Of a stretch of 33,306 bases of DNA, positions 8,946-30,607 are shown one piece after another. The notes under the pieces were generated by a model. It was not told the DNA's origin. It was given only the letters and a program-made list of their open reading frames with translations, and did no database searches. A program made the position numbers and the translations under genes. Position 1 is the stretch's first letter. The number at the start of each line of letters is the position of its first letter. Source of the DNA: Thermodesulfobacteriota bacterium (GTDB taxonomy: Bacteria; Desulfobacterota_D; UBA1144; Nemesobacterales; CSP1-2); assembly GCA_036397855.1 (NCBI GenBank), contig DASWID010000070.1, positions 1 through 33,306 on the forward strand, given 5' to 3'.

Positions 8946-9289
8946 CCCCTGAGAGACATCGAAGGGGATGAAGCAACCGAAAACGGAAAAAATGAGATTG
9001 CTTCGGGATAAAACTCCTCGCAAAGACAGAATGGGAGCAAACCCGGATGCCACCGACTCTCCGCCAGCAGCGTGCGGGGGCAGGCCTTGTCGGGGATCCG
9101 GAGGCGAAAGAATGGATTCCCGCTTACAATCCGCCCGAATGACTGGTTGTGAGATTGCTTCACTTTCGGAATTTATTCTCAGCGAGTCGAAGGGCAAATT
9201 TCACAGCAACTCTGGGATTTCCTGTCATCGCGAGGATATCGAAGCGATCTCCTGCCTAAGTTGAATGAATATTAGCGCGGCAAGCAACA
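8946..9289 (+). repeat. Composite dispersed repeat, copy 1
   Basis: Begins with a REP-like palindrome (CCCCTGAG...TCGAAGGGG, 8946-8967), contains GAGATTGCTTC twice, and ends with the 63-bp core 9227-9289 starting ATCGCGAGGATATCGAAGC. A longer 95-bp block, 9195-9289, aligns without gaps to the inverted copy at 12463-12557. The core holds a short ATCGC/GCGAT inverted repeat. Confidence 0.75.
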
Positions 9290-9401
9290 TGAAGTTATCA
9301 AGCTAAATTTGATAAAGACTTAAATTAATCTGCGTAACTGAAGAAAGGTTTCTGTGTTGTGAATTTATCTGTTATTACTTTTGCAACTGCGAATTAACTA
9401 C

Positions 9402-10627: not shown

Positions 10628-12346
10628 TTAATTTAATAGGACAGAATCAGCTGGCGCGGCTTTCTCTTGTATCCCACCAGAGGTTTTATCTTCGTTAATC
10701 TCATATTCTAAATCATATCTGCCATAACCAAAGAGTTTTACCTCGAGAAGTTCGAGTAAATCTGAGAGAGTTTCCTTGTTTAGAGCTGATATCAGGCGTG
10801 CTTGGTGTGCTTTCTTAAGTCTATTTATGGTTTCAATTGTAGCAGAGTCTATTTTATTGAACACAATGATTCTAGGTATAGATTCATAGCCTGTGCTTTC
10901 TAATATCTTATCAACTGAATCAATCCTTTCGTCCAGAAGTGGATCACTAGCGTCTGCTACATGCACGAGTAAAGAGGATTCACCCATTTCTTCAAGGGTT
11001 GCCCTGAATGCTTTTATCAGTTCATTCGGCAAGTTTCTTATAAATCCTACGGTATCTGTAACTAATATTTCTCCTTTACCCGGTAATATTAGTTTTCTGG
11101 TCGTAGGATTCAGGGTTGAAAAAAGCTTATTTTCAACAACAGCGTTACTTTTTGTGAGGGTGTTAAAGAGTGTAGATTTCCCAACATTCGTGTACCCGAT
11201 CAATGTTACGGTCGGTATTCCGGTTTCTGTTCTTTTCTTCCTTGTATGTTCACGTCTCTTGCTTATCTCCTCTATTTGCCTTTCGAGGTGTTCTATCTGT
11301 TGTCTTAATCGTCTTCTTTCTTCTTCAAGTTTTTTTTCGCCTGGACCCCTTGTTCCTATTCCACCTGCAAGTTGAGATAGCTCGATGCCTCTTCCGGTCA
11401 GCCTTGGTAGCAGGTAACGGAGCTGCGCTAATCGGACCTGGATTTTACCTTCACTTGTTACTGCATGTCTTGCGAATATCTCAAGTATCAATTGCGTTCT
11501 GTCAATTACGCCTAAATTTGTCTTTTCGGATATTGATTTTACTTGCGCAGGGGTTAATTCTAGGTCAAAAACAAGTGAATCTGCACCTAGCTGCCTGGCC
11601 CTCAGAATAACCTCTTCCGATTTTCCTTTTCCGATAAGATATCTTGGGTCTATCTGTTTTCTACCCTGAATTGTTTTATCTAATACTACTTTGTCCGCAG
11701 AGATGGCAAGAGATTCAAGCTCTTTAATTGAATTTTGCGCATCAACCCGGGAATTCGTATACACTCCTATAAGGAAAACACCCTCTTTTTCTCTGTGTCC
11801 GCCGATTTCGAAGAATGATCTTTCGTTGTCATATTCAATATCTGTTAGAAACTCTTCAAAATTAATATCTATGCGTCCCAGGTCGTTGTAGTCTATTATC
11901 TCCCACATCTTCCCGTCAGTATTCGGCGGGAGGATATGAGCTATTTGAAACTTCCCCGGAATTCCACCGTCTCTTACTTCAAGCACCCCTATAAGGTCTA
12001 GTCTTTCTTTCAACAGGGTTACAAGGTCAGGGTGTGATAAAATGGAGTCTTTTAGATGCGTGTGAATAAGCCGATAGCCTCTAAGTCTATACTTCGCCTC
12101 CCTTGAACGTTGGAGTTGATCAAAGGGCACTTGAAAGGAATCGCCAATAAAAACAATCTCTATTTTCCCTTTCCTGTTTATTAAAACTGTTATGCTTTTA
12201 TTTATTTCCTTCGATAAACTTGAAAGTGTCCTTCCAAGCTCTAAGGTGATGATTTCTCTTGGGGGTATCCTTCTCTTATATAGCCTTGAGAGGTTTCGAA
12301 TATGGCTAGATTTAAGACCTGAAATATTTCCTAGAATTTTTTCTAT
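10628..12346 (-). CDS. hflX: Ribosome-associated GTPase HflX (apparent ATA start)
   Basis: HflX binds the 50S subunit and splits or rescues stalled ribosomes using GTP. Seen: the glycine-rich linker GGIGTRGPGEKKLEEERRR before a coiled coil; the G domain with G1 GYTNVGKST, G3 DTVGFIRNLP and G4 NKID; upstream, the HflX N-terminal domain with ALIGKGK-like RYLIGKGKSEEV. The first ATG/GTG/TTG in frame is GTG 12130, which would begin inside a conserved block. The same frame stays open for 72 more codons reading GNISGLKSSHIRNLSRLYKR, ELGRTLSSLSKEINKSITVL and IGDSFQVPFDQL, matching the family's long N-terminus. None of these codons is ATG, GTG or TTG, but GGAGG lies 9 nt before ATA at 12346. The start is therefore set there (572 aa); GTG 12130 (500 aa) is the fallback. 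Confidence 0.85.
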   Translation of the reverse strand: MEKILGNISGLKSSHIRNLSRLYKRRIPPREIITLELGRTLSSLSKEINKSITVLINRKGKIEIVFIGDSFQVPFDQLQRSREAKYRLRGYRLIHTHLKDSILSHPDLVTLLKERLDLIGVLEVRDGGIPGKFQIAHILPPNTDGKMWEIIDYNDLGRIDINFEEFLTDIEYDNERSFFEIGGHREKEGVFLIGVYTNSRVDAQNSIKELESLAISADKVVLDKTIQGRKQIDPRYLIGKGKSEEVILRARQLGADSLVFDLELTPAQVKSISEKTNLGVIDRTQLILEIFARHAVTSEGKIQVRLAQLRYLLPRLTGRGIELSQLAGGIGTRGPGEKKLEEERRRLRQQIEHLERQIEEISKRREHTRKKRTETGIPTVTLIGYTNVGKSTLFNTLTKSNAVVENKLFSTLNPTTRKLILPGKGEILVTDTVGFIRNLPNELIKAFRATLEEMGESSLLVHVADASDPLLDERIDSVDKILESTGYESIPRIIVFNKIDSATIETINRLKKAHQARLISALNKETLSDLLELLEVKLFGYGRYDLEYEINEDKTSGGIQEKAAPADSVLLN

Positions 12347-12452
12347 ACTAAGATTCCTCCGCGTTCAGAGCGAAATTAAGATTACAAAAATTATAACCAT
12401 CATTAACTCTAAGTACAAGGAAGAGAGTGGCAACTTCAACATGATTTAACTC

Positions 12453-12630
12453 GCGAATTCCCTGTTGCTTGCTGCGGTACTGCTCATTCAATGTAGGTAG
12501 TAGATCGCTTCGATATCCTCGCGATAACAGTCAACCCCGGGGCTTATTGCGAAATTTACAACGCAAATTGAAGCAATCCCATCTTTTTTCACCTGTTTAG
12601 GATTCCCTCGTCCCCTTCGACCCTTCGATC
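12453..12630 (-). repeat. Composite dispersed repeat, copy 2 (inverted)
   Basis: Core 12463-12525 read on the minus strand matches 9227-9289 at 54 of 63 positions without gaps, the first 24 bases being identical. Similarity continues to 12557, and shorter shared pieces (GATTGCTTC, TCGAAGGGG) reach 12620. A GCGAATTC at 12453 extends the unit and recurs in copy 3. Confidence 0.8.
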
Positions 12631-12704
12631 TTTCGTTATTTCTCAACACTCAGGACTCAGGACTCCTCGCAACAACCGAAGAGACTGTCTGTTTATGTTC
12701 TGAT

Positions 12705-29102: not shown

Positions 29103-29204
29103 AGGGAATAAATTCTACACTAGAGAAGGGTCTAAGAAAAATTGGCAAGAACTAATAATTCATGATAACATAATTTTCCTTAATAGCTTGTCTACGGATT
29201 GCCC

Positions 29205-29627
29205 ATGGGCCATAAAACACTTCTGACAAAAAGGGTCGACTTTGCTGCCTCACATCGTTATTGGAATCCTGAGTGGAGTGAAGAAAGGAATCAAGCAGTC
29301 TTTGGTAAATGTACGAGTAAATATGGTCATGGACACAATTATATCCTTGAGGTTACAATTGAGGGTGAGGTTGATCCCAAAACGGGTATGATAATTAACC
29401 TATATGACTTAAAACCAATGATAAATGATGTTCTTAAGGATTTTGACCATAAACATCTGAATGATGATAACATCTATTTTCGAGATAGAATTCCCACTAC
29501 AGAAAATATCGCACGAGTATTTTGGGAATTGATAGAAAAACAGCTTGGGAAAGAAACAAACTGTAGACTATATAGAATAAGACTCTACGAGACCCCTGAT
29601 CTGTTTGTGGATTATAGGGTTGTATGA
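29205..29627 (+). CDS. 6-pyruvoyl tetrahydropterin synthase / QueD family, paralogue 1
   Basis: 140 residues. Zinc ligands His17 (FAASHRYW), His42 and His44 (GHGHNYILEV), catalytic Cys36 (FGKCTSKY), the Asp/His pair in FDHKHLND and the Glu in LYETPD match the 6-PTPS/QueD fold. These convert 7,8-dihydroneopterin triphosphate to 6-pyruvoyl tetrahydropterin or 6-carboxytetrahydropterin. TTG at 29199 is also in frame; ATG 29205 is preferred, though neither has a clear ribosome site. The next gene begins one base after its stop. Which of the two reactions it catalyses cannot be told from the sequence alone. Confidence 0.87.
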   Translation: MGHKTLLTKRVDFAASHRYWNPEWSEERNQAVFGKCTSKYGHGHNYILEVTIEGEVDPKTGMIINLYDLKPMINDVLKDFDHKHLNDDNIYFRDRIPTTENIARVFWELIEKQLGKETNCRLYRIRLYETPDLFVDYRVV

Positions 29628-29628
29628 T

Positions 29629-30054
29629 ATGCCAAGGGAGATTTGTAGTATAACAAAAGTGTATCACTTCTCGGCAGGACATCGACTTTTTCTAAAAGAT
29701 GTGTCAGAGGAAGAAAATTTTCGAATTTTTGGCAAATGCACCAATCCTAAAGGGCATGGGCATGATTACTATTTAGAGGTAAGGGTTAGTGGACATATTG
29801 ATCCAGATACGGGAATGATAATAAGTATTAGTGAGCTGGATGACATAACGGGAGATGTCATCGATGAATTAGATCATAAAAGGCTTGATATTGAAGTTCC
29901 CTATTTTACAGATGTGCAAGCCTCTGGAGAGAACATTGTGAAGTACTTTTGGTTACAACTTAGACCAAGGATAAAAAAAGGGGAACTCAGTTATCTGAAA
30001 CTCTGGGAAACGCAAAATAACTATTTCGAGTATTTTGAGGAGGAACCTTCATAA
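29629..30054 (+). CDS. 6-pyruvoyl tetrahydropterin synthase / QueD family, paralogue 2
   Basis: 141 residues, a second member of the same family. Zinc ligands are His18 (HFSAGHRL), His43 and His45 ([10 protein letters not shown]); catalytic Cys37 (FGKCTNPK), ELDHKRLD and [10 protein letters not shown] follow. It is clearly related to the gene just upstream (same motif spacing) but well diverged, so it is an old duplication. An open frame extends upstream to TTG 29605, but ATG 29629, one base after the previous stop, is the natural start. folE follows after one base, so the three are one operon. Confidence 0.87.
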
Positions 30055-30055
30055 A

Positions 30056-30607
30056 ATGAGTATAGCGACAGCCGTGCGGGAGATTCTTACAGAGATTGGA
30101 GAAGATCCTGACAGACAGGGGCTTAAAAATACACCTGATAGGGTTGCAAGGATGTATAAAGAGCTTACAACTGGTTATATGATCTCACCTCAACAAATGA
30201 TAAACGGTGCTATCTACGATATTAAGTATGATGAGATGGTAGTAGTCAAGGACATAGAGTTTTATAGCCTCTGCGAACATCATCTGCTCCCCTTTTTTGG
30301 TAAGTGCAGCGTCGCATATATTCCGGATGGGAAAGTAATAGGGCTTAGCAAGATACCGAGGATTATCGAGGTTTTTGCACGACGTCTTCAGATACAAGAG
30401 GCAATGACTGTTCAGATCGCGGATTTCTTAAATGATACTCTTAAACCCCAGGGTGTAGCTGTGGTTGCAGAAGCATATCATCTTTGTATGGCCATGAGGG
30501 GGGTTGAGAAATCTGAGGCTAGCATGTTAACCAGCTCTATGCGTGGGGTGTTTAAAAAGGATGAGAGGACAAGAATAGAATTTTTAAGCTTGATAGGTAA
30601 GCGTTGA
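30056..30607 (+). CDS. folE: GTP cyclohydrolase I
   Basis: 183 residues. It opens GTP to 7,8-dihydroneopterin triphosphate, the first step to folate, tetrahydrobiopterin and queuosine-type deazapurines. Zinc-binding [11 protein letters not shown] and the later Cys in [10 protein letters not shown] are present, as are [20 protein letters not shown] and the N-terminal [25 protein letters not shown] stands 10 nt before ATG 30056 and lies inside the end of the preceding gene; an in-frame TTG at 30035 overlaps that ribosome site and is rejected. Its product is the substrate of the two upstream 6-PTPS proteins. The stop overlaps an SDR remnant start (TGATG). Confidence 0.95.

Follow-up and report, generated by a model that had tools for sequence, protein, structure and literature searches.

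Non-AUG starts and the control of HflX in described systems

The textbook case of a bacterial gene with an AUU or AUA start is infC, and AUA, AUC and AUU are the codons which IF3 discriminates against. To our knowledge, few other bacterial genes have conserved non-AUG starts, and repression by IF3 concerns mainly infC and sigR. The AUU start of infC and the GTC start of Streptomyces sigR are both repressed by IF3 (PMC5472188), and in S. aureus, where non-canonical starts reach about 10-30% of the AUG output, infC and ccpN start on AUA (PMC13009471). The hflX gene described here resembles infC by a rare AUH start (AUA, AUC or AUU) found across phyla, a strong Shine-Dalgarno (SD) motif and a product acting on ribosomal subunits, and infC of the same class itself starts on AUA; it differs in that infC serves a feedback on IF3 itself, whereas hflX would be a separate target, with a codon that does not strictly follow that of infC. 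With sigR it shares a non-AUG start in a gene other than infC, but the codon is not GTC, the organism is not Streptomyces, and the IF3 effect, which comes from experiment for sigR, is deduced for hflX. The AUA of ccpN and the AUU of cvfC1 in S. aureus are likewise conserved and preceded by an extended SD; these starts are backed by ribosome profiling and reporters (PMC13009471), whereas that of hflX is backed by comparison. Conservation links S. aureus to B. subtilis for ccpN and is found among staphylococci for cvfC1, whereas the hflX codon class extends across several phyla.

The HflX of E. coli has 426 residues and belongs to a type devoid of the N-terminal extension of roughly 190 residues discussed below, and the control of Listeria hflXr is by attenuation. 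E. coli HflX splits 70S ribosomes while IF3 keeps free 30S subunits apart, and E. coli hflX is controlled by heat-shock promoters (PMC9067457); a candidate stalling leader has been described for hflX of Bacillales (PMC8632094). In none of these systems (E. coli, Bacillales, Listeria hflXr) is the described control exerted through the start codon. The HflX proteins of E. coli and S. aureus belong to the same GTPase family, TIGR03156. At the level of titles and abstracts, the open-access papers searched report no non-AUG start for hflX, the study of Deinococcus deserti N-termini by Baudet (2010) lying outside this scope. Conserved non-AUG starts are thus already known, and what we did not find in the open-access papers searched is hflX as a member of this group, with such breadth.

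The hflX frame and its ATA start

The window, that is the whole stretch of 33,306 nucleotides that was analysed, carries an hflX frame whose features are collected in Table 1. Its 572-residue product scores 418 bits against NCBIfam TIGR03156, for a cut-off of 216.75, and presents the domain order PF13167 (GTP-bdg_N, residues 205-292), PF16360 (GTP-bdg_M, 294-372) and PF01926 (MMR_HSR1, the G domain, 380-498), the earliest family match in Pfam and NCBIfam searches being at residue 190. By analogy with the E. coli protein, this HflX would be expected to split 70S ribosomes. The minus-strand frame ends with a stop codon whose last base is at 10628, and its first 72 codons from the ATA contain no ATG, GTG or TTG. 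A previous sequence-only reading had already counted these 72 open codons, placed a GGAGG nine nucleotides before the ATA and located the GTG at 12130, and all its coordinates hold. It had left two alternatives: either ATA is used to start translation, or an ATG-to-ATA change has cut or reduced expression, leaving a possible short form from the GTG. The comparison with related genomes, a check which it had named, strongly supports the first alternative and refutes both parts of the second.

Table 1. Features of the hflX locus in the window (positions on the forward strand)
Feature	Position	Strand	Basis
hflX coding sequence, 572 codons, ATA start	10628..12346	-	TIGR03156, Pfam domains, alignment from residue 1
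Start codon ATA	12344..12346	-	ATA in 46/46 readable class genomes; next in-frame canonical start at 12130
N-terminal extension (residues 1-189) of long-form HflX	11780..12346	-	No Pfam or NCBIfam match
GTG, first canonical start, rejected	12128..12130	-	No SD; position not common to relatives
Shine-Dalgarno motif GGAGG, nine-base spacer to ATA	12356..12360	-	Sequence
In-frame TGA, closing the frame six codons 5' of ATA	12365..12367	-	Sequence
Probable -10 element TATAAT of the hflX promoter	12390..12395	-	Sequence; inferred
Tentative, weak -35-like TTGTAC with a 17-base spacer to the -10	12413..12418	-	Sequence; below promoter-scan threshold

Conservation of the start codon within the class

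The search for HflX covered 60 relatives, and starts were taken from the class loci with a readable N-terminus. Under one uniform rule, codon 1 was ATA in all 46 of these loci, the most distant of which have about 39% protein identity; a canonical codon lay near the ATA as well in two of them, and in two genomes (G010 and G014) the ATA is displaced upstream by two codons and has GCG after it. The codon alignment of 44 class coding sequences presents ATA at codon 1 in every row, whereas the 32 other isoleucine columns all mix ATA, ATT and ATC, even those with isoleucine in all 44 sequences, so that it is the codon which is held and not the amino acid. From each gene's own isoleucine codon use, the fixation of ATA at codon 1 has a log10 P of -15.4, a value overstated because the genomes are treated as independent. 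Judged on these alignments, the ATA at codon 1 is not there by chance. In one genome of the same family (G001, about 98% complete) the long-form HflX was not found; it is present in all other family members searched.

The same position in other phyla

Over all samples, ATA, ATC or ATT occupied the aligned start in about 206 of 234 loci, an approximate count since some genomes sit in both the named set and a phylum set. The phylum samples are the best-matching loci of each sample and not random ones, except for 20 weaker cyanobacterial loci, and within them the three codons were found in 49 of 50 loci of Cyanobacteria, 27/30 of Nitrospirota (the phylum of Thermodesulfovibrionales), 28/30 of Acidobacteriota (that of Pyrinomonadaceae) and 26/30 of the phylum of Desulfovibrio piger. 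The named set of relatives was more mixed (30/48): ATT, ATC or ATA in Blastocatellia, Syntrophaceae, Thermodesulfovibrionales, Nitrospirae, Desulfovibrio and its relatives, Holophagales and nearly all Cyanobacteria, ATG in most of the Desulfobacterales read and most Clostridia, and TTG in Thermus. Complete or isolate genomes with these codons include Calothrix NIES-22, Picosynechococcus PCC 7117, Desulfovibrio piger and Solidesulfovibrio aerotolerans. A quick tree was built from 209 HflX proteins; the aligned position is ATH in 174 of its rows and a canonical codon in 15, with at least eight changes between the two states, whose direction cannot be told on an unrooted tree. If the AUH start is true, the cyanobacterial peptide IETIYGNLQGLK would bear a methionine in place of its first isoleucine. 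One HflX-like protein of Nostoc (L102) starts on ATG and is separated on the tree from the remaining cyanobacterial HflX rows; it is possibly the product of a second hflX copy. Plasmid records gave no informative annotated long-form hflX.

Shine-Dalgarno motif, leader and promoter

The weak codon is accompanied by a strong ribosome-binding site. A four-base SD match at the right distance was present in 42 of the 46 class loci (9.9 expected from control positions) and a five-base motif in 26 of 27 Nitrospirota loci (1.5 at control positions); across phyla, SD motifs at the proper distance were well above control positions, with Cyanobacteria presenting one in only about half of their loci. The 3' end of the 16S RNA of the window's genome carries the canonical anti-SD (L200:3319-3332).

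Upstream of the SD, the TATAAT of the window probably implies an hflX leader of roughly 35-40 bases, in a promoter which is tentative, given a weak -35 and no call at that site in the promoter scan. Among 202 loci, -10-like hexamers peaked 20-49 bases before the start (62, 45 and 43 per 10 bases, 150 in the three peak bins), while more distant upstream bins held about 7-17 each. With this clustering near the start, a promoter of its own and a short leader seem to be common for hflX. A dispersed repeat occurs nearby in two copies of opposite orientation (8959-9308 and 12444-12690, with 95-base arms at 79%), one of which stops some 25 bases short of the -35-like site of hflX.

A proposed control of the weak start by IF3

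Comparison between genomes fixes the position of the hflX start and shows that AUA is used there. Our reading, to which we give a probability of about 0.85, is that hflX of the window is translated from the AUA at 12346 into 572 residues by near-cognate initiation, as one instance of a conserved AUH design that is most likely responsive to IF3. The low output of HflX and its dependence on IF3 would arise as follows. The fMet-tRNA(CAU) would pair imperfectly with AUA in the P site, the strong SD on a short leader would compensate in part for the weak codon, and IF3 would destabilise the resulting initiation complex. With IF3 in sufficient supply, HflX synthesis would stay low; when start selection is relaxed, because IF3 is scarce relative to free 30S subunits or under stress, it would go up, as for infC. 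Since HflX splits 70S ribosomes and IF3 keeps the free 30S subunits apart, making more HflX when IF3 falls short of free 30S would make sense.

The distribution of infC starts is compatible with such a coupling. In the class, infC starts on ATA in all 31 loci read (30 relatives and the window's genome), and outside it mostly on ATA, ATT or ATC, with GTG in Cyanobacteria. The two genes do not follow each other strictly: Cyanobacteria have hflX on ATA or ATC while infC is on GTG, and in Desulfobacterales, Pelosinus and Thermus a canonical hflX start goes with infC on ATA or ATT. As the two codons are not locked together, joint control by IF3 is plausible but not demanded. The occurrence of AUA, AUC and AUU in several phyla suggests that HflX may be under the same start-codon checkpoint as IF3 itself. 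We also put forward, as a tentative proposal to which we give somewhat less than an even chance, that the long-form HflX carries across much of bacteria an old start-codon switch of the IF3 type, hflX and infC being two outputs of one fidelity checkpoint through the balance between free IF3 and 30S subunits. If true, control by IF3 would not stop at self-regulation but take in a broader group of genes for ribosome maintenance.

The alternative that survives best keeps the AUA start and drops the signal: AUA, AUC or AUU would be a fixed weak start holding HflX low, and the level of IF3 would not be a physiological signal. HflX is a factor for times of stress, dispensable in E. coli under normal growth (PMC9067457), reporter output in S. 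aureus falls to about 10% with non-AUG starts (PMC13009471), and the lack of strict linkage between the hflX and infC codons goes in the same direction. However, GTG, TTG or a weak SD would be a simpler way to low output, yet a strong SD is kept beside the weak codon, and what is kept across phyla is the class AT-plus-A/C/T. We regard this explanation as a serious contender, if one a little under even odds.

Other explanations of the ATA codon

The reading of an IF3-responsive AUA start supposes an ordinary initiator tRNA. An initiator tRNA dedicated to AUA (anticodon UAU), or an altered genetic code, would instead make AUA a full-strength start in this lineage; the class uses only AUA for hflX and AUA again for infC, and no initiator tRNA gene was recognisable in the incomplete assembly of the window's genome (37 tRNAs). 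But the initiator-type tRNAs checked in class relatives all have the anticodon CAU, and the GGGCTTATAACCC matches (GGG-UAU-CCC) found in many class genomes, which resembled the anticodon arm of an initiator, proved to be coding sequence from ARAGORN and the flanking sequence. Elsewhere in HflX, AUA is an ordinary isoleucine codon, invariant-isoleucine columns included, and by our own reading of the sequence the genome has an Ile2-like CAU tRNA. With a CAU initiator and AUA read as ordinary isoleucine, initiation at the hflX AUA would be near-cognate, and we consider a special initiator or code very improbable.

Just as improbable is that the ATA is an internal isoleucine codon of a protein begun upstream. 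A canonical in-frame codon does exist 2-8 codons upstream at a few loci, but at most loci a stop, not the same one everywhere, shuts the frame after a few codons. In several class genomes (L004, L013, L018, L059 and L060) a single codon separates the stop from the ATA, and elsewhere the stop directly precedes the start, as TAA ATA (L358, L386), TAG ATA (L377) or TAA ATT (L327, L330), which makes an upstream start impossible there; L329 has TAA ATG at the same place. An internal codon would also be hard to reconcile with synonymous isoleucine codons that are free elsewhere and fixed at codon 1.

Translation of a short HflX from a downstream codon, with the first 72 codons untranslated, can draw on the GTG being the first canonical start of the frame and on family models which cover only the later part of the protein. 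Against it, the first 72 codons align without gaps from residue 1 with relatives at 53-77% overall identity, which bears out the assignment of these residues to the HflX N-terminus by the sequence-only reading, and between G000 and G004 codons 2-72 present 28 synonymous and 21 amino-acid-changing differences, a sign of purifying selection and thus of coding sequence. No SD motif was found before the GTG at 12130, and the first downstream canonical starts of relatives lie anywhere from codon 26 to codon 147, so that there is no shared short form; this explanation has a very small probability. Gene callers limited to ATG, GTG and TTG should misplace the start of hflX, or truncate the gene, in such genomes. 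Least probable of all is a recent ATG-to-ATA mutation or a sequencing error. One base change would suffice for it, and the genome is an assembly of 195 contigs, but it is refuted by the ATA of every class relative, the protein-level selection on the upstream region and the same codons in complete or isolate genomes of other phyla.

Non-AUG starts elsewhere in the genome

General use of non-AUG starts by the window's genome was considered and rejected: a scan of 542 kb with 470 long ORFs gave only a few candidates preceded by a good SD, and the one tested lacked conservation. This NUDIX-like gene, so named from our own reading (L224:16997-17380, or G000:C130:36997-37380), has ATC as apparent start, preceded by AAGGA, and the following 83 codons hold no canonical start; in three of the four family relatives an ATG stands at that place or beside it, so the conservation seen in hflX is missing. 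CTG is a candidate start, with an AAGGAG or AAGGA motif, at three sites of the window's genome, L219:3123 (-), L190:14755 (-) and L197:7411 (+), two of the three preceding long ORFs with membrane or signal-like N-termini. In the window itself, positions 29199-30607 hold a pair of neighbouring 6-pyruvoyl-tetrahydropterin synthase genes that overlap each other and, next to them and likewise overlapping, a GTP cyclohydrolase I gene, and TTG is the first listed start in all of them.
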